DNA of 35,467 nucleotides from Bacillota bacterium (GTDB taxonomy: Bacteria; Bacillota; Thermincolia; Thermincolales; UBA2595). The notes beneath the pieces were generated by a model. It saw only the letters and a program-made list of their open reading frames with translations. It had not been told where the DNA came from and did no database searches. Shown here piece after piece: positions 21,096 to 30,559 of this stretch. Location of the stretch: assembly GCA_021847735.1 (NCBI GenBank), contig JAJZQD010000015.1, positions 1 to 35,467 of the forward strand, in the 5' to 3' direction. The first letter of the stretch is position 1. Each line of letters begins with the position of its first letter. Both the position numbers and the translations under genes were made by a program.

Positions 21096-21120
21096 AAAAA
21101 AAGACCGGAATTTTCCGGCC
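21096..21120 (-). terminator. Intrinsic terminator of the salvage operon
   Basis: On the minus strand a GC-rich stem GGCCGG/CCGGTC (one G-U pair, 21120-21103) with an AAAATT loop is followed by seven T residues (21102-21096). It lies 33 nt past the last gene (stop at 21153). Confidence 0.9.
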
Positions 21121-21152
21121 CAGAGCTATTTGTCGTCCTCATTATGCCTATC

Positions 21153-22445
21153 CTACCCAACCAGCCTGTCTGCGCATCGTTGAACATTTTCCAGGATTTC
21201 CTGTTCGTTCATGGTCAGCACTTTCCCTTGCCTCATGATAATTTTACCGTCAACAAGCACTGTGTCCACATCTGATGATTGAGCAGCGTAGACTGTGTGA
21301 GCGATGATGTCATGCTTCGGATACAGGTGGGGTTTGTTAAAATCAATAAGAATTATGTCTGCCTTATAACCGGGCTGCAGTACACCGATATCATTGAGAC
21401 CCAGAACCTTGCCGCCGTTTTTCGTGGCCATCGCAAGGGCTTGGTCAGAAGAAATTACGCTGGCATCCATTGAGTTAACCTTATGAAGCAAAGCCGCTGA
21501 CCTCATTTCCTCCAGCATGTCGAGGTTATTGTTGCTGGCAGCACCGTCAGTGCCCAGTCCGACTTTAATCCCTTCGGCTAACATCTGGGGCACGGGAGAG
21601 ATACCGCTGGCCAGTTTCATGTTGCTTTCCGGGTTGTGGGCAACACCCACATTTTTCTCTTTCAAAATTTTTATGTCATTTTGGGTAAGATGGACGCAGT
21701 GGGCGCCTAACACGGGGGAGTCCAGCACGCCCAAATCATGGACATATTCTATCGGTGTTTTTCCATAAAGCTTCCTGATTTCATCCACTTCCGACCTGGT
21801 CTCGGCCAGGTGAATGTGAATTCCTACCTTTGCCTGTTGGGCTATGGCCAGTACTTTCTTTAGATAGTCCGGCGGGCAGGTATACGGTGCGTGGGGACCC
21901 ACCATAGTGGTAATTCTGCCGCCGGCTGCCCCGTTCCACTTCTGTACAAATTCAGCTGTCTCATCCAGAGCGAGCTGCGCTGTGGGGGCTACTCCCACCA
22001 TTCCCCTGGACAAACTGGCCCTTATTCCCGTTTTTTCTACAGCCCGGGCCACTTCATCCATAAAAAAATACATATCGGCAAAGGTTGTCGTGCCTGATTT
22101 TATCATTTCCAGGATGCAGAGCATCGTCCCCCAGTAGACATCTTCCCCGGTCAATCTGTCTTCCAGCGGCCAAATCTTGGTCAGCCATTCCATCAGGGGC
22201 ATGTCATCAGCATAGCTGCGCAGCATGGTCATGGCCGCATGGGTGTGGCAGTTAACAAAACCGGGCATCGCCACCATTCCGGCAGCATCGATGGTTTCAT
22301 CGGTATCCCACCTGTCGGAAACAGTTCCTTTAGGCCCCACTGATACAATTTTATTCCCCTCAATGGCTATTTCGCCATTTGCTATCATTTTTTCCCCGTC
22401 TGCCATCGGAATAACAGTGGCGTTTTTGATCAGAATTTTTCCCAT
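21153..22445 (-). CDS. mtaD: MTA/SAH/5'-deoxyadenosine deaminase (MtaD/DadD type)
   Basis: The 430-residue amidohydrolase has the complete mononuclear metal site: His67 and His69 (NCHTHAAM), His212 and Glu215 (HIHLAETRSE), His249 (GAHCVH) and Asp300 (LGTDGAASNN). Enzymes of this type deaminate S-adenosylhomocysteine, methylthioadenosine and, in methanogens, 5'-deoxyadenosine to the inosine forms. The exact preference cannot be read from sequence. A TrzA/AtzB-like role on other aminopurines is less likely given its neighbours. The start is ATG 22445 after AAGGAGGG. It is last in a seven-gene operon with an AhcY homologue and a nucleoside phosphorylase. Confidence 0.88.
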   Translation of the reverse strand: MGKILIKNATVIPMADGEKMIANGEIAIEGNKIVSVGPKGTVSDRWDTDETIDAAGMVAMPGFVNCHTHAAMTMLRSYADDMPLMEWLTKIWPLEDRLTGEDVYWGTMLCILEMIKSGTTTFADMYFFMDEVARAVEKTGIRASLSRGMVGVAPTAQLALDETAEFVQKWNGAAGGRITTMVGPHAPYTCPPDYLKKVLAIAQQAKVGIHIHLAETRSEVDEIRKLYGKTPIEYVHDLGVLDSPVLGAHCVHLTQNDIKILKEKNVGVAHNPESNMKLASGISPVPQMLAEGIKVGLGTDGAASNNNLDMLEEMRSAALLHKVNSMDASVISSDQALAMATKNGGKVLGLNDIGVLQPGYKADIILIDFNKPHLYPKHDIIAHTVYAAQSSDVDTVLVDGKIIMRQGKVLTMNEQEILENVQRCADRLVG

Positions 22446-22461: not shown

Positions 22462-23052
22462 TTACCATTTGTTATATTGATCACTTTTCCGGTCTTTTAT
22501 CTCTCCATTGAGGGTTCTGGTAAGATAAATTATCTTACATATGTTTTCCAGGCTGGAGGTCCATTGGTAAGCCTCCTCAATTAACTGCCCCACGGCAAAG
22601 CTGCCATGGCCCCTGACCATTACTATCTTGTATTCCTTTAAATACTCGGGCAGTATCCGGGCTACCTCTTCAGAACCTACGGTATGCTCAAAACCTATAA
22701 CCGGTATTCTGTGCAGCATATACTGTCCTTCCGAGTCAATGGGAATTATTTCGTCTTCGAGGAGAGAAAGGGCTGTGGCGTATACGGGGTGGGCATGAAC
22801 TATGGCCAGGGCTGAAGTGTTTTTAAAAATTGAACGGTGGACACCGATTTCCGTTGAGGCCAGGGTTATCCGGCTGTCGTTTTTGGACAGCCCGGTTTCA
22901 ATCAAATCCGTTTCTTTTAGGTTGCCAAGCATTGACCCTCTCCTGGTAATGACAATCCTGTCGCCCAGGCGGATACTCATGTTCCCGCTGTGGGAACTGT
23001 TCAGCCCCTGTATAAACAAGTCCCGGCCTATCTGGCTGAATTCCCTGTACAT
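22462..23052 (-). CDS. Class II (zinc) aldolase, FucA/AraD family
   Basis: The 196-residue protein is an L-fuculose-1-phosphate-aldolase-like enzyme. The zinc site is intact and spaced as in E. coli FucA (73/92/94/155): Glu68 (STEIG), His86 and His88 (IVHAHP) and His149 (VRGHGSF). The phosphate-binding SGNMSIR loop is at 22-28. Next to mtnA and a phosphorylase it most probably splits 5-deoxyribulose-1-P or 5-methylthioribulose-1-P into DHAP and acetaldehyde or methylthioacetaldehyde, like the Ald2/DrdA enzymes; this is inference from context. Its ATG follows the aor stop directly, with GGAGG inside the aor 3' end, so the two genes are translationally coupled. Confidence 0.85.
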   Translation of the reverse strand: MYREFSQIGRDLFIQGLNSSHSGNMSIRLGDRIVITRRGSMLGNLKETDLIETGLSKNDSRITLASTEIGVHRSIFKNTSALAIVHAHPVYATALSLLEDEIIPIDSEGQYMLHRIPVIGFEHTVGSEEVARILPEYLKEYKIVMVRGHGSFAVGQLIEEAYQWTSSLENICKIIYLTRTLNGEIKDRKSDQYNKW

Positions 23053-24834
23053 TTACATTACCTCCAGCCCGAGTTCGGATAGCTTCTCAGCGGTAGGAAT
23101 GCCGCGGCTGTCCCACCCTCTGAACCTGTAATAGTCAGTGAGCATGGGGTCAAGTTGGACCACATGCCCCTTGGACGGGCCGGATTTCACCGGTTCTTTT
23201 AAAAGACGCCCGGGTAAAGTATCTTCCTGCCCGGAAAAACCTTCTCTGATATTATAAAGGCGTTCCAAATTCCATATTCTTTCGCCAATTACATGTAAAT
23301 CCTGCGGTTGGAATTCTTCGCCGGTGACAGCTGTCAGCAGCCTGGCGAAATACTCTTCAGCCACGGCCAAACCGATAAAGCGGCAGATAATCAGGGCATC
23401 CATTGCGGCATTAAGGTTTTGGTAAAAAATCGTCAAGCCCGCTTTTCCGTGGATCGAAAACCTATCCACCATCTTGGGGACTCCAAGAATCTCCGGTCCT
23501 ACCATATAGGCCCGGAGGTGGCACCCTCCCCGGTTGGAAGTGGCAAATCCAAGCCCCATTCCCTGGAGTCCGCGCGGGTCATATGCCGGAAGTTCCAGTC
23601 CCTTAACCTGCATAGCATACTGTTCACCACCGTATTTGGCGGCGAAACTGCGGGAACCGTCCGCCAGCTCGGCGCCGACGCCCCGCCGGTACGCAATATC
23701 CTCAATCAATGGTCTTAACTTACCGGTATCGCCAAATTTCAAGTCCCAGTCGATAAGGCCGTTGGCCGCCATTTCCATAGCGCATCCTATAGTTGAACCC
23801 ACAGAGATAGTATCCAGTCCCAACCTGTTGCAAAGGTAGTTGGCTTCGGCAATAGCCTCCAAATCACTGACCCCGCACTGCGGGCCCAGAGCCCAGATTG
23901 ATTCGTATTCCGGTCCTTCGCCCTCATCCCTGGCGGTACGTGTAACCCGGGTACACTTGACAGGGCAGCCGTAACACCCTTTTTTCCTGACGGTAATCTT
24001 TTCGGCCATTACCTCGCCCGATATTTCTTCGGCCTCAGAGAATTGTGATTCCTGAAAATTGTAAGATGGGAAAACACCGCACTCGTTAAACAGGTTAACC
24101 AGTACAGGGGTGCCAAACTCTGGCAGACCCTGGGAGGTAATGGGGTTAGCTTTTAGCCATTTGTTGGTTTCATACAGAACAAACTTCAGTTTTTCCTCTT
24201 CAGCCGCCTTAATGTTTTTGGAACCCTTTACTGCCACGGCTTTGAGGAGCTTTGAGCCCATAACGGCACCCAACCCGCCCCTGCCAAGGGCACGGGTATT
24301 GTCATTCATAATACAGGAAATCCTGGCCAGGTTTTCACCCGCAGGACCTATACACGCTACACTGTACCCGGTCCCTTCGGCGGCCAACACAGCCTTGGTG
24401 GTATCAGGAACATTGCAGCCCCAAAGCTCCCCGGCATCCTTAACAACCGCGCCGGTTTCGTTAATAACTATATATACGGGTTTCTCAGCCTTCCCCTCCA
24501 CAATCAGCCCGTCATAACCGGCCTTTTTTAACCGGGCACCCCAGATGCCTCCGGAGTTTGAGTCAAACACAGTCCCGGTCAGCGGAGATTTGGCTGTTAC
24601 TGTAAACCTTCCGGAGGTTGGCACTTTGGTGCCGGTGAGGGGGCCTGTCATAAAAATCAGTTTGTTGCCCGGGGAAAGGGGGTCGGTTTCAGGCGTAACT
24701 TCCCGCCATAGAAGGTTACACCCGAGTCCCCGGCCGCCCAGAAATTTATGGTAGCCGTCGGGCTCCGGGTATTCAATGGACACTTTTTGATTTGTAAGGT
24801 TGGCTCTCAGAATCTTTCCTGTCCACCCGTACAT
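23053..24834 (-). CDS. aor: Aldehyde:ferredoxin oxidoreductase, tungsten/molybdenum bis-pterin
   Basis: The 593-residue protein has the family's three-domain layout. The [4Fe-4S] ligands are Cys287, Cys290, Cys294 (GCYGCPVKC) and Cys484 (ALIICRF), which match the Pyrococcus furiosus AOR spacing. The catalytic-site residues Glu311 (GPEYES) and His439 (NRGGCHLR) are present. Enzymes of this family oxidise aldehydes to acids and reduce ferredoxin, but paralogues differ in substrate. Sitting between a MoaD-like gene and an aldolase that releases an aldehyde, it is well placed to consume that product. The start is ATG 24834 after AGGAGG. The N-terminal MYGWTGKILRANL and GGRGLG blocks are canonical. 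Confidence 0.93.
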   Translation of the reverse strand: MYGWTGKILRANLTNQKVSIEYPEPDGYHKFLGGRGLGCNLLWREVTPETDPLSPGNKLIFMTGPLTGTKVPTSGRFTVTAKSPLTGTVFDSNSGGIWGARLKKAGYDGLIVEGKAEKPVYIVINETGAVVKDAGELWGCNVPDTTKAVLAAEGTGYSVACIGPAGENLARISCIMNDNTRALGRGGLGAVMGSKLLKAVAVKGSKNIKAAEEEKLKFVLYETNKWLKANPITSQGLPEFGTPVLVNLFNECGVFPSYNFQESQFSEAEEISGEVMAEKITVRKKGCYGCPVKCTRVTRTARDEGEGPEYESIWALGPQCGVSDLEAIAEANYLCNRLGLDTISVGSTIGCAMEMAANGLIDWDLKFGDTGKLRPLIEDIAYRRGVGAELADGSRSFAAKYGGEQYAMQVKGLELPAYDPRGLQGMGLGFATSNRGGCHLRAYMVGPEILGVPKMVDRFSIHGKAGLTIFYQNLNAAMDALIICRFIGLAVAEEYFARLLTAVTGEEFQPQDLHVIGERIWNLERLYNIREGFSGQEDTLPGRLLKEPVKSGPSKGHVVQLDPMLTDYYRFRGWDSRGIPTAEKLSELGLEVM

Positions 24835-24859: not shown

Positions 24860-25093
24860 TTAACCTCCACCGATAAGGGGAAACAGACTGACTGTGTCCC
24901 CATCTTTAAGAACACAGTCCTGCCCCGCTCTCACACCATTAACAAGTACAACAGGTGCCTCCTCCAAAGGGATTCCCTGTTGTTCAAGAAGCCGGCCGAC
25001 AGTGACCGTTAAGGTATCATTGACAGTAATTTTGTTAACTGGCTTGGCTAAATGTTTTCTTAATGACGCAAACAGTTTTAATTCAATTTGCAT
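24860..25093 (-). CDS. MoaD/ThiS-like sulfur carrier protein
   Basis: The 77-residue ubiquitin-fold protein ends in the diagnostic Gly-Gly (FPLIGGG), the tail that is thiocarboxylated for sulfur transfer. The core (IELKLFASLRKHL, VLVNGVRAGQDCVLKDGDTVSLFPL) fits MoaD-like carriers. Its position 25 nt before aor suggests it supplies sulfur for the tungstopterin of that enzyme. I start it at ATG 25093, two bases after the ahcY stop; the ATG at 25114 lies inside ahcY. A ThiS role in thiamin synthesis is less likely here. Confidence 0.85.
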   Translation of the reverse strand: MQIELKLFASLRKHLAKPVNKITVNDTLTVTVGRLLEQQGIPLEEAPVVLVNGVRAGQDCVLKDGDTVSLFPLIGGG

Positions 25094-25095
25094 AC

Positions 25096-26349
25096 CTATT
25101 CCCCGTGCTGCCAACCGTACAGGTACTGTTCCTGCTCAGGTGTCAACCGGTCAATTCCGGTGCCGAGGGACTTCAGTTTTATCTCAGCTACTTTTTTGTC
25201 TATTTCATCAGCAACCTTGTAAACCTTATTGCCGAGGTTTTTGCCGTTTTCCAGTATATATTTGGCTGACAAGGCCTGGAGGGCAAAGGACATATCCATT
25301 ATTTCCGCCGGATGGCCGTCACCTGCTGCCAGGTTAACAAGCCTCCCCTCAGCCAGTAGATATATCTTCCTGCCGTCAGGCATCGCAAATTCTTCGATAT
25401 TTTGCCGGACAACCCGGCGGCCGACTGAACGCTCGTTCAACTCGGGTTTGTTGATCTCAACGTCAAAATGCCCGGCGTTGGCCAGCAGGGCCCCATTTTT
25501 CATGTTTTCGTAGTGCTTACCCCTAATAACATCCTTGCAGCCGGTAACAGTTATGAACACATCACCCAGAGCGGCGGCATCATCCATACTCATAGCGGTA
25601 AAGCCATCCATATGGGCCTCAATGGCCTTGATGGGGTCAATTTCTGTGACAATAACCTTAGCTCCCAGACCTTTGGCCTTCATAGCAATTCCCTTGCCAC
25701 ACCAGCCGTATCCCGCCACAACAACGGTCTTTCCGGCCACGATGAGGTTAGTTGTTCTCATGATACCGGTCCAAACCGACTCGCCGGTACCGTAGCGGTT
25801 ATCAAACAAATATTTGCAGAGGGCGTCATTTACCGCAATCATGGGGAACTTCAGCAAATTTGCTTTCTCCATGGCTTCCAGGCGCATGACCCCTGTAGTG
25901 GTTTCCTCGCTGCCCCCGATAACCTGGTTTGCCATGTGGCTGCATTCATTATGTAACAGGTTAACCAAATCTCCCCCGTCATCAATAATAACATCCGGTC
26001 TCGTCTCCAAAACCTTCACCAGGTGTTCCTTATATTCTTCGGCGGTGGCGTTATACCAGGCATAAACCTGAATTCCGTCTGCAGCAAGGGCAGCGGCAAC
26101 ATCATCCTGAGTTGAAAGCGGGTTACTGCCGGTAATTACCACATCGGCCCCACCGGCTTTTAAGACCTTGGCCAGGTAGGCGGTCTTAGCTTCAAGATGA
26201 ATGCTGACTGCTACCTTCACCCCTTTAAAAGGTTTAGTCGCTTCAAATTCGCTGCGAATTTGGTTTAGAACAGGCATGTGTTCTTTTACCCAGTCAATTT
26301 TCAGTTTACCTGACGGGGCGAGGTTGATGTCTCTGACAATGTAGTTCAT
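25096..26349 (-). CDS. ahcY: S-adenosylhomocysteine hydrolase family protein, archaeal/HxExK type
   Basis: The 417-residue NAD-dependent hydrolase splits S-adenosyl- or S-inosyl-homocysteine. The NAD site ([19 protein letters not shown]), [25 protein letters not shown] and [11 protein letters not shown] are all present. The substrate-pocket motif is His51-x-Glu53-x-Lys55 ([11 protein letters not shown]), the version found in archaeal and Thermotoga-like enzymes and not the HxTxE/Q of typical bacterial and eukaryotic SAHH. Recent work links HxExK to preference for the inosine substrate; I recall this and could not check it. It is shorter than canonical SAHH (about 430-470). The start is ATG 26349 after AGAGGAGG. 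Confidence 0.93.
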
Positions 26350-26366: not shown

Positions 26367-26419
26367 AGTTAGTGGCTGGTAGCCAGTGGCCTTAAGGGCG
26401 CCTGCCCTAGCCCCTAACT
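26367..26419. repeat. Inverted repeat between mtnA and ahcY
   Basis: The outer arms AGTTAG-GGCT/AGCC-CTAACT (26367-26377 with 26409-26419, one mismatch) enclose two smaller stems, TGGCT/AGCCA (26373-26385) and AGGGC/GCCCT (26395-26408). One arm covers the mtnA stop codon. It may modulate read-through or protect the 3' end of the upstream message; there is no T-tract. Confidence 0.5.
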
Positions 26420-27448
26420 GCTAAATAACTTACTCAGATTATCCTTATAGGGTGGTCTGACAATCCCACGGTCTGTTATAATTGCCGTAATTAAACGATT
26501 GGGCGTTACATCAAAGGCCGGGTTTAATACCTTAACCCCCCGGGGAGCAACCTCCTGCCCGAAAACAGTAGTAACCTCAACCGCTTCCCGCTCCTCAATA
26601 ACAATTTCATCACCTGAACTGAGGTTCATATCTATAGTCGAAGCCGGAGCAGCCACATAGAACGGGATATTGTGTTCTTTGCATAATACCGCCACGGAAT
26701 ATGTTCCGATTTTGTTGGCAACATCCCCGTTACCTGTTATCCGGTCAGCCCCTACAACCGCCAGGTCAATAAGGCCCCTGCTCATTAAATACCCGGCCAT
26801 ATTGTCAGTTATTAAAGTAACCGGGATATTATCCTGCATCAACTCCCAGGCGGTTAGCCTTGCGCCCTGAAGCAGTGGCCGGGTTTCATCGGCAAAAACC
26901 TCGATGGCTTTTCCCGAGTCGTGGGCCGCCCTGATTACCCCCAGTGCGGTCCCATAACCTGCGGTGGCAAGGGCGCCAGCATTGCAATGGGTAAGGATTT
27001 TAGCCCCGGAGGGAATTAGCTGTTCCCCGAATTTGCCGATATTCTTGTTCATTTCTATATCTTCCGAGAGTATTTTATGGGCTTCCTGAAGCAGGAGTTC
27101 CTTAAGGTTCGCTACCTCTCCGGGGCCGTAGTTTTCCGCAACCCCCATCATTCTTCCAAGGGCCCAAAACAGGTTGACAGCTGTAGGCCTTGTGGAGCCG
27201 AGCATATGTGAAACCTCTCTGATATGCCGCAAAAAAGACTCTTTATCCGGGGACTCACATTTTAGTCCGCCCATGGCCAGGCCGTAAGCGGCCGCCGCCC
27301 CAATGGCCGGGGCCCCGCGAACCTTCATGGTTTTGATGGCATCTGCCACCTCACCGGCTGTCCTGCAATTCACATAGGTTATTTCCAACGGCAGCCTGGT
27401 CTGGTCAATCAACACAAGTCCACCGTCACGCCATTCCATTGTTTTCAT
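26414..27448 (-). CDS. mtnA: 5-methylthioribose-1-phosphate isomerase family (MtnA)
   Basis: The 344-residue protein converts the aldose-1-phosphate from the phosphorylase step to the ketose. The active-site residues Cys155 (ILTHCNAGALATAGYGTALG) and Asp235 (VVGADRI) are present, as are RGAPAIGAAAAYG at 44-56 and NKIGTYSVAVL. These set it apart from eIF2B subunits. DrdI enzymes acting on 5-deoxyribose-1-P belong to the same family, so either sugar may be the substrate. The start is ATG 27448 after GGTGG, 22 nt after mtnP; the ATG at 27523 would overlap mtnP and adds an unconserved leader. Confidence 0.93.
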   Translation of the reverse strand: MKTMEWRDGGLVLIDQTRLPLEITYVNCRTAGEVADAIKTMKVRGAPAIGAAAAYGLAMGGLKCESPDKESFLRHIREVSHMLGSTRPTAVNLFWALGRMMGVAENYGPGEVANLKELLLQEAHKILSEDIEMNKNIGKFGEQLIPSGAKILTHCNAGALATAGYGTALGVIRAAHDSGKAIEVFADETRPLLQGARLTAWELMQDNIPVTLITDNMAGYLMSRGLIDLAVVGADRITGNGDVANKIGTYSVAVLCKEHNIPFYVAAPASTIDMNLSSGDEIVIEEREAVEVTTVFGQEVAPRGVKVLNPAFDVTPNRLITAIITDRGIVRPPYKDNLSKLFSS

Positions 27449-27470
27449 TTTCGCCACCTGTTCAGGATAA

Positions 27471-28271
27471 TTATATTCCCGGCCCGAGGGAACCCAGTTC
27501 TTTGAGGGCATTTTGGCAGGCACAGTCTCTCTGCTGCGGCATTTCCTCGATGGTCCTGATGATAAGTTTCTTTAGGTTTTCGTTATTCTTCCTGATGGCA
27601 TCCAGTACTTCCGCGTGCGTTAGAGGAGTAGGTGAAATACCAGCGGCAAAATTGGTTACCATGGCAATTGTCACATAGCACATTTCAGCTTCCCGGGCCA
27701 GTACCACTTCCGGAACGCTGGTCATGCCGACAAGGTCGCCCCCCAGAAAACTGTACATCTTTATTTCTGCGGGTGTCTCAAACCGGGGCCCCTCAGTACA
27801 AACATAAGTGCCTTTGGTCTTAATAGGCATTTCGAGGTTTTTCGCGGCATTAACCACGATCTTCCGCAATGCAGAGCAATAAGGTTCAGTCATATCTATA
27901 TGGACAACACCCTTATCCCCTTCTTCAAAAAAGGTTTGAATCCGGGTCTTCGTAAAATCAATGAACTGGTCAACCAGGATAAACTCTCCCGGTCTCATTT
28001 CAAGGTTCAGGGAGCCGACGGCGCCTGTTGCAATAATTCTTTCCACTCCAAGTTTTTTCAGGGCCATTATATTTCCCCTGAAATTGACCTTATGTGGCGG
28101 AAGGGCGTGGCCCTCCCCATGCCTGGGCAGAAAGGCCACAGGCACCCCGTGGTATTCACCAACCTTGACGTTGATGGCACCAAATTCAGTTTGGACATTT
28201 TCCTCTCGGATATTTGACAGCATTTTGGGGTCATAAACCCCAGTTCCCCCAATTATCCCGATTTTAGCCAT
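27471..28271 (-). CDS. mtnP: Purine nucleoside phosphorylase, MTAP/MTIP family, probably inosine-type
   Basis: The 266-residue enzyme phosphorolyses 5'-modified nucleosides to the base and sugar-1-phosphate. Phosphate-binding elements (GIIGGTGVY, LPRHGEGHALPPHKVN), TGAVGSL and the ribose-site GMTSVPEVVLAREAE are canonical. At the base-recognition site it has Asn207 and Ala209 (MVTNFAAGIS), where MTA phosphorylases have two Asp (TDYDCW). Asn is what 6-oxopurine-specific PNP and methylthioinosine phosphorylase use. With the deaminase in the same operon I favour methylthioinosine/5'-deoxyinosine as substrate. The start is ATG 28271 after GGGGG. It lies only 32 nt after the ftsY stop. Confidence 0.9.
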   Translation of the reverse strand: MAKIGIIGGTGVYDPKMLSNIREENVQTEFGAINVKVGEYHGVPVAFLPRHGEGHALPPHKVNFRGNIMALKKLGVERIIATGAVGSLNLEMRPGEFILVDQFIDFTKTRIQTFFEEGDKGVVHIDMTEPYCSALRKIVVNAAKNLEMPIKTKGTYVCTEGPRFETPAEIKMYSFLGGDLVGMTSVPEVVLAREAEMCYVTIAMVTNFAAGISPTPLTHAEVLDAIRKNNENLKKLIIRTIEEMPQQRDCACQNALKELGSLGPGI

Positions 28272-28303: not shown

Positions 28304-29212
28304 TCACTCAAAAAGAGCCTCAACAAAATCCCCGGGACTGAATTCCTTCAAATCGTCAATTTTTTCCCCTATCCCGATATATTTAACCGGAATATCCATT
28401 TCTGACCTTATCCCGATTACAACTCCACCTTTTGCAGTTCCGTCAAGTTTAGTCAATACAATCCCTGTGGTGCCGCAGGCCTGGGCAAAGAGTTTGGCCT
28501 GGCTGACGGCATTCTGTCCGGTTGTGGCATCCAAAACAAGTAAAACCTCGTCAGGAGCCCCGGGCATTTCCCTGGAAATTACCCGGAATATTTTTTTCAA
28601 CTCTTCCATCAGGTTTGTCTTAGTATGCAGCCTCCCGGCAGTATCAATAATCAGCACATCGGATTTTCTCGCCCTCGCCGCCTGGATGGCATCATAAACC
28701 ACAGCAGCGGGGTCAGCACCCTCCTTGTGCTTTATCACGTCAGTACCGCCGCGCTCACCCCATATTTCGAGCTGGTCTATGGCTGCAGCCCGGAAGGTGT
28801 CACCCGCCGCCAGGAGCACCTTTTTGCCGTCCTGCCTGAGGTTATATGCAAGTTTGCCAATTGTGGTCGTCTTACCCACTCCGTTGACACCGATTACCAC
28901 AATAACTGCCGGGCAGCCATTAAGATTTAGGGTGAATTCCTCGGTGCCCATCATCCCGGCTATCAGCTCTTTTAATATATTCTTAAGTTCCTGGGCATCT
29001 TCAATGTTTCTCTCTTTGACTGTCTTTTTTAGGTTTTCTACCAAATCAACTGAGGTTTTGACACCAACGTCGGCCTGGATAAGCAGTTCTTCAAGTTCTT
29101 CGTACAGCTCTTCGTCAATCTTTTTACCCCCGCCCACAAGGTTTTCAATTTTCTCTACAAAACCCTGCCTTGTCCTGGTTAGGCCTTCTTTAAGCTTCGA
29201 AAAAAAACCCAC
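28304..29212 (-). CDS. ftsY: Signal recognition particle receptor FtsY
   Basis: The 302-residue SRP receptor GTPase delivers ribosomes to the membrane. A short basic N-terminus leads into the N domain (about 1-95). The G domain has G1 at about 108 ([15 protein letters not shown]), [13 protein letters not shown] (G3), [12 protein letters not shown] (G4) and the C-terminal [22 protein letters not shown]. The long acidic A domain of E. coli is missing, as in other Gram-positives. The start is GTG 29212 after GGGGAGG. It stands 49 nt past a 19-bp palindrome. Confidence 0.97.
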
Positions 29213-29311: not shown

Positions 29312-30448
29312 TTAGTGTATTATCTCAATTGGTTTGCATAAATTAGTGTACTCTTGGGCCACACCGAACTTGCGGTTTCGGATTTCCGCTTCCTCTTCCG
29401 GCGTGCCCGCATCGAAGAACCTGAGGTTTAGTTCTTCATCCTCGTCGGCAAGGTCAAACACCGTGTCGGTGTTTTCAATAACAGTGGCGCCCCGGACTTT
29501 CCCCTCATTGTCGTGGCCAATAGCCACTATTGAACGGCCCCAGGAACCGGGCCCGGCATTGGCATCCCCCATATGCATAACTCCGGTCCCTCCGGGATGG
29601 GTGTGAACAATAACGGCGTTTTCAGGAACTCCGTGGGCATAGACCTGTCTCAGGGATTTCCCGGTAATATCCACACAACTGGAAGCAAGAATTCGTGAAG
29701 GAACATAACCTATCCCCCCGACGACCGTTTCTCCCTTTTGCGTGATGTTTCCCTTTTCATCAATTACACCCATAGCGGCCACTTCTCTGCCCAGCCCGAC
29801 TTCCATTGATTTGGCCACAAGTTTCTCGGCAAAATCGGCCGATATCGATTTCACATTTATCCTGGGAAGTCTCCAGGGGGTTCTACCCTCCGGTTTGTAT
29901 TCTTCTTGGGTAGTTATTTCTACAACCTCCAGCCCGGTGGACATTTCCAGGTATTTAAGGCTTAACTCGGTGGAAGCCCGCATAATCTCTTTCTCTTCCT
30001 CGGTTGTTAGGGCCGCCAGTATTTCAAGGTCTACCTCTTCCGACTGGGTAGCCAGGTCAAAAAATTCTTCCTTAGGGAAGATAATACCCACTCCTGCCAA
30101 AGTATCCTGCTTTACTCCAACGGCAATCACGGGCATGTTGAAAAAATCAACTCCCGAGACATCGGTAATTAACCCAGTTTTTCCCGGTCTCGTGGTTATA
30201 AGCACCGAATTATCAGGTATCATTTCCAGCCCTTCGATCAGGCTTTTCCCTTTCATTTCACTGATATGGCACAGAAGCTTCCGCAGGGGCAGCCCACCAA
30301 GCCCGCCCTCTTCAATAGGGGTCATTTTAACTACGACACCCTGTTCATCAACAAACCCAAAACATCCGGCGTTACGGCCCTGGCTAATTTCCGTAGTAAT
30401 CCCGACAAGACTGTCGACAATTTGTTTCGCTATACCCTTGACCTTCAT
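29312..30448 (-). CDS. Two-domain protein with a C-terminal JAMM/MPN metalloprotease motif
   Basis: The 378-residue soluble protein is one I cannot name. The C-terminal third has a full JAMM zinc-site pattern: His282-x-His284 followed by ten residues and Asp295 (VIVHTHPGGTGVMHMGDANAG), with Glu222 (GREVAAMGV) a good candidate for the catalytic glutamate. This is the signature of JAB/MPN deubiquitinase-like and RadC-like metalloproteins. The first 180 residues have no motif I know and may be a separate alpha/beta domain. The start is ATG 30448 after GGGGGG; the ATG at 30463 has no ribosome site. It sits between smc and ftsY, where Bacillus-like genomes have nothing. Confidence 0.75.
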   Translation of the reverse strand: MKVKGIAKQIVDSLVGITTEISQGRNAGCFGFVDEQGVVVKMTPIEEGGLGGLPLRKLLCHISEMKGKSLIEGLEMIPDNSVLITTRPGKTGLITDVSGVDFFNMPVIAVGVKQDTLAGVGIIFPKEEFFDLATQSEEVDLEILAALTTEEEKEIMRASTELSLKYLEMSTGLEVVEITTQEEYKPEGRTPWRLPRINVKSISADFAEKLVAKSMEVGLGREVAAMGVIDEKGNITQKGETVVGGIGYVPSRILASSCVDITGKSLRQVYAHGVPENAVIVHTHPGGTGVMHMGDANAGPGSWGRSIVAIGHDNEGKVRGATVIENTDTVFDLADEDEELNLRFFDAGTPEEEAEIRNRKFGVAQEYTNLCKPIEIIH

Positions 30449-30559
30449 CAAATTCCCCCCCATTTTCCGGTTTTATTTTATGGCATTTTTTTCAGGGATC
30501 CAATGGTATTTTTTCCTGGGTCCGCAGGGTATATGCGGTTTAAATATATCCAGCAAAGG

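Follow-up and report, generated by a model that had tools for sequence, protein, structure and literature searches.

The window analysed here (a stretch of 35,467 nucleotides from contig JAJZQD010000015.1, part of a draft Bacillota genome of 2.18 Mb that is 62% complete) carries on its minus strand, at 27471–28271, a homologue of mtnP whose product we suggest, with a probability of roughly 0.73, to be an MTAP-family phosphorylase for 5'-modified 6-oxopurine nucleosides (chiefly 5'-methylthioinosine and 5'-deoxyinosine) that works in an operon in which deamination comes first. Given a predicted base pocket for deaminated nucleosides and a deaminate-first operon, the usual label of MTA phosphorylase would name the wrong substrate, as a preliminary description of this DNA had proposed. 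The support for this explanation rests on residues, family, gene order and co-occurrence. Neither methylthioinosine phosphorylases nor a deaminate-first route is new; what is useful here is the complete operon and a mislabelling that extends across the clade.

The phosphorylase gene runs from an ATG at 28271 to a stop at 27471 and encodes 266 residues (an in-frame GTG at 28307 is an alternative start that would add 12 amino acids). Its closest named kin by protein are from Thermincola, together with Firmicutes MAGs, and no other MTAP-like protein was found in the incomplete assembly. The Ser-Asp-Asp (S-D-D) adenine pocket of characterised MTAPs is absent from this protein, which instead has Glu165 (codon 27777–27779), Asn207 (27651–27653) and Ala209 (27645–27647; all codons on the minus strand and computed from the ATG at 28271). 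The latter two lie in the motif Thr206-Asn207-Phe208-Ala209-Ala210-Gly211 (TNFAAG, numbered from the ATG), at which human MTAP has TDYDCW in the HMMER alignment, human PNP has Thr242-Asn243-Lys244-Val245 (N243 verified on PDB chains) and the Pseudomonas aeruginosa enzyme PaMTIP has VNPAAG (taken from the chain of PDB 3ozb, titled 5'-methylthioinosine phosphorylase with hypoxanthine). The preliminary description had set Asn207 and Ala209 against the two Asp residues of MTAPs and had taken Asn as the 6-oxopurine choice in PNP and MTIP; the first point is borne out by Asp220 and Asp222 of human MTAP and the second by the PNP and PaMTIP sequences, and a third switch residue, Glu165, had been overlooked. 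Glu165 stands in GPRFET, aligned with GPRFSS of human MTAP (Ser178), GPSFET of human PNP (Glu201) and GPRLET of PaMTIP (Glu), and this site and that of Asn207 lie 42 residues apart both in the window protein and in the human MTAP and PNP. As the alignment has no gaps across both sites, PaMTIP included, it is unambiguous and another register is not credible; at the level of sequence, comparison with human MTAP, human PNP and PaMTIP placed no other residue at the base site.

Both the base-binding Glu and the base-binding Asn of trimeric PNP (Glu201 and Asn243 in the human enzyme) are thus present, and the Glu-Asn-Ala (E-N-A) triad is identical to that of PaMTIP. In calf PNP, the purine N1 and O6 are hydrogen-bonded by Glu201 and Asn243 (PMC9916683), and adenosine-based nucleosides, which wild-type human PNP does not cleave, are substrates of its E201Q:N243D variant (PMC2799393); the positions mutated in that variant are those that differ between the window protein and MTAP. 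The triad, its identity to that of PaMTIP, the human PNP mutant, the deaminase in the operon and the hydrolase motif described below all argue for the inosine-type base recognition that had been proposed. The phrase 'inosine-type phosphorylase' holds for the base preference and does not specify the 5' group (that is, methylthio, deoxy or hydroxyl).

The same residues sort the wider family. Among 202 MTAP/PNP-family sequences surveyed from genome contigs, Bacillota genome regions and plasmids, the triad is S-D-D in 36 (loci L113, L144, L154 and 33 others), E-N-A in 150, E-N-G in 15 and E-N-C in 1; the E-N total of 166 includes 9 ordinary PNPs, leaving 157 non-PNP copies. As none of the 202 sequences mixes the S-D-D and E-N residue sets, the E-N-A triad is not a product of chance. 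Most of the Bacillota 'MTA phosphorylases' sampled here resemble the window protein. A tree of 162 sequences has a single change of type, with S-D-D forming one clade (SH-aLRT 99) that persists without the three triad columns and two long rows. The PNP outgroup, weakly resolved in this tree, is of E-N type, which suggests a tendency rather than a firm polarity, with E-N as the older state and adenine specificity derived. Of the nine plasmid-borne relatives, eight are MTAPs of the S-D-D type and one is a divergent copy of the E-N-G type, and there is no deaminase among the listed neighbours of any of them.

Family models leave the name of the window protein undecided, as it passes both the TIGR01694 cut-off (MTAP; 308.8 versus 274.85 bits) and the NF006599 cut-off (S-methyl-5'-thioinosine phosphorylase, EC 2.4.2.44; 253.8 versus 223 bits), so that an annotation pipeline could give either name; all PNP cut-offs failed (NF006054, 153.7 versus 218 bits; TIGR01697, 137.8 versus 197.1). 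HMMER scores are 194 bits for human MTAP and 58 bits for human PNP. In an AlphaFold2 model (mean pLDDT 78, pTM 0.81) the best fold matches are MTAPs, with a TM-score of 0.74–0.82 for 3ozb; the loop at 108–123 is poorly modelled, and the model thus supports the fold, not the geometry. The TIGR01694 score and the fold matches would also suit an MTA phosphorylase of the ordinary kind whose base site has drifted and that remains true to its label. We consider this very improbable and rejected drift of a plain MTAP, given that the three base-site residues switch together in 156 of 156 non-PNP E-N-A/G sequences, that the MTIP model is also passed by a protein with the PaMTIP triad, and that the hydrolase encoded nearby is of the S-inosylhomocysteine (SIH) type.

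The 5' pocket is mixed, with one MTAP-like and one PNP-like histidine. His124 aligns with His137 of human MTAP and Phe159 of human PNP, and at this position PNPs have Phe and 155 of the 157 non-PNP E-N copies have His. His219 aligns with His257 of human PNP, with Val233 of human MTAP and with Met in PaMTIP, and its match to the PNP residue could, on alignment, be a sign of 5'-hydroxyl preference; His also occupies this position in 23 of the 36 S-D-D copies, and for that reason His219 by itself was not used to rank 5' specificity. His219 and the PNP-like base triad would be expected of a genuine 6-oxopurine nucleoside phosphorylase that uses inosine (and guanosine), clears the inosine from SIH hydrolase and has no special role for 5'-modified substrates, and an MTAP-family protein of Pyrococcus furiosus is reportedly a PNP for inosine and guanosine. 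That the MTAP state is kept at His124, that mtnA lies directly next to the phosphorylase gene in 123 of 157 E-N loci and that all seven near relatives (7/7) have a separate PNP, so that inosine cleavage need not be the job of the window phosphorylase, together make such an enzyme unlikely. The mtnA adjacency and the separate PNPs in relatives favour 5'-deoxy and 5'-methylthio substrates for the window phosphorylase; inosine, as an expected product of the SIH hydrolase, is plausible as an additional substrate.

The gene run on the minus strand reads ftsY (28304–29212; TIGR00064, 366.7 versus 260.7 bits), mtnP, mtnA, an adenosylhomocysteinase homologue, a MoaD-like gene, an aldehyde:ferredoxin oxidoreductase (AOR) gene, a class II aldolase gene, a deaminase gene, a terminator-like hairpin and ylxM-ffh, with gaps of at most 64 bases from mtnP to the deaminase and some genes overlapping. 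For mtnA ((methylthio)ribose-1-phosphate isomerase, 26414–27523; NF004326, 489.9 versus 271 bits; TIGR00512, 458.1 versus 279), the longest open reading frame shares 53 bases with the end of the phosphorylase gene, and translation probably begins at an ATG inside this frame (MKTMEWRDGG). The adenosylhomocysteinase homologue (25096–26349; nearest structures PfuSAHH 7r37 and S-inosyl-L-homocysteine hydrolase 7r3a) contains His51-Leu-Glu53-Ala-Lys55, that is, the HxExK motif, which assays have linked to SIH-preferring enzymes, as they have HxTxE/Q to SAH-preferring ones (PMC10978960). The SIH preference predicted from this motif is separate evidence for an operon that acts on hypoxanthine compounds. 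Further downstream are a small MoaD/ThiS-like protein (24860–25114; Pfam PF14451/PF02597), the AOR (23053–24834; Pfam PF01314/PF02730; best PDB matches 9mqx and 1aor) and an aldolase of the fuculose-1-phosphate-aldolase type (22462–23052; NF006413, 254.5 versus 203 bits; PDB 2fk5). Four other loci (L047, L049, L128 and L209) have an AOR with 64–79% identity at this place, flanked by hydrolase and aldolase genes in the same order as in the window; three belong to relatives from the clade of the window protein and one to a genome from another family. The deaminase that had been placed in the same operon is indeed there, last in the gene run: an amidohydrolase homologous to MTA/SAH/5'-deoxyadenosine deaminases (21153–22445; best PDB match 4f0r, an MTA/SAH deaminase) in which the metal-ligand motifs HTH, HLxE and HCVH and the stretch GTDGAASNN are conserved in alignment with TM0936 and 4f0r. 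A terminator-like hairpin with a T tail (21102–21121, minus strand; a consensus match only) follows directly, and the window has no match to any Rfam family and hence no known SAM or SAH riboswitch.

On the basis of this gene content, we envision a pathway in which the deaminase would act first, turning MTA, 5'-deoxyadenosine and SAH into the corresponding hypoxanthine compounds. The HxExK hydrolase, judged by its published fingerprint, would then split S-inosylhomocysteine into inosine and homocysteine, and the phosphorylase would release hypoxanthine and 5-(methylthio/deoxy)ribose 1-phosphate, with Glu165 presumably bonding to N1-H and Asn207 to O6 and N7 of the base, by analogy with PNP. 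The sugar phosphate would be isomerised by MtnA and the resulting 5-(methylthio)-deoxyribulose 1-phosphate cleaved by the aldolase to DHAP and an aldehyde (acetaldehyde or methylthioacetaldehyde), which the AOR, to judge from the position of its gene, may oxidise. We regard as an even bet the broader proposal that many anaerobic Bacillota recycle MTA, SAH and 5'-deoxyadenosine only after deamination, by way of one hypoxanthine-type operon (including the AOR in some lineages), and that adenine-specific MTA phosphorylase arose once from a 6-oxopurine ancestor.

Co-occurrence across genomes is consistent with a deamination step tied to the E-N type. With copies clustered at 80% identity, 95 of 123 of the E-N type and 2 of 29 of the S-D-D type have a deaminase no more than 8 kb away; where the motif of a neighbouring hydrolase was readable, the E-N loci have HxExK in 52 of 54 cases and the S-D-D loci HxTxE/Q in all three (3/3). 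Given the single origin of S-D-D, these deaminase and hydrolase counts are not independent, and the deaminase association represents approximately one evolutionary event; a purely statistical claim from a Fisher test was rejected, as with this single origin on the tree it overstates independence. Genomes with both E-N and S-D-D copies (n = 12) are a better control than the locus counts. A deaminase is present in 7 of these 12, each time clustered with the E-N copy (in one case as a weaker, 230-bit match), with the S-D-D copy elsewhere in five and all three genes in one cluster in two. The other five genomes (G112, G036, G183, G094 and G250) lack an MtaD-like deaminase above the threshold of the search, which indicates that the link between E-N copies and deaminase is strong and not strict, and that E-N copies can exist without a deaminase. 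Genome-wide, a deaminase scoring at least 300 bits occurs in 29 of 36 sampled E-N genomes versus 4 of 14 S-D-D-only genomes.

That 12 sampled genomes retain separate E-N and S-D-D copies suggests divided labour, which bears on the further possibility that the window enzyme is fully promiscuous, accepting 6-amino and 6-oxo nucleosides alike, and that the residue switch carries little weight in the cell. Precedent for this exists in Methanocaldococcus jannaschii MtiP (MJ0060), described as promiscuous in a review in which it acts on six purine nucleosides (PMC6302742). As two residues suffice to alter base choice in human PNP (PMC2799393), and in view of the divided labour, we find full promiscuity quite unlikely.

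Compared with known systems, the proposed phosphorylase for 5'-modified 6-oxopurine nucleosides is close to PaMTIP, with which it shares the MTAP fold and the triad, and which in P. aeruginosa follows an MTA deamination step (PMC6302742); the window protein differs in having His219 in place of Met, a C-terminal CxC motif and a seven-gene salvage operon around it. The M. jannaschii pathway of MtiP and DadD/SIHH has the same deaminate-first route, SIH hydrolase and MtnA as the next step, but is archaeal, whereas the window genes form one run that includes the aldolase and AOR. Human MTAP (1cb0) shares family, fold and the His at the 5' position contributed by the neighbouring subunit, and differs at Ser178-Asp220-Asp222 (versus Glu165-Asn207-Ala209) and Val233 (versus His219); human PNP (1ula and others), of a distant family, shares the equivalents of Glu201, Asn243 and His257 and differs in having Phe159 where the window protein has His124. 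The DHAP shunt (mtnP or mtnN+mtnK, mtnA and a class II aldolase) similarly places mtnA and a class II aldolase beside the phosphorylase. As described, it begins with adenine nucleosides (PMC6079011, PMC10986504), whereas in the window a deaminase and a hypoxanthine-type phosphorylase would take the first steps.

With the automated label of MTA phosphorylase, pathway models of anaerobes release adenine straight from MTA and 5'-deoxyadenosine. If our reading is correct, the released base would be hypoxanthine and the deaminase the first step, and clostridial schemes in which 5-deoxyribose 1-phosphate is formed directly from 5'-deoxyadenosine (PMC6079011) would need checking. The three-residue test tells the two enzyme types apart from sequence alone, and genomes with both types provide a natural comparison.

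Between ftsY and smc, also on the minus strand (29312–30463), lies a gene for a 383-residue protein that has no Pfam or NCBIfam match even at an E-value of 5 and that contains HTHPGGTGVMHMGD, which loosely resembles a JAMM metal-binding motif.
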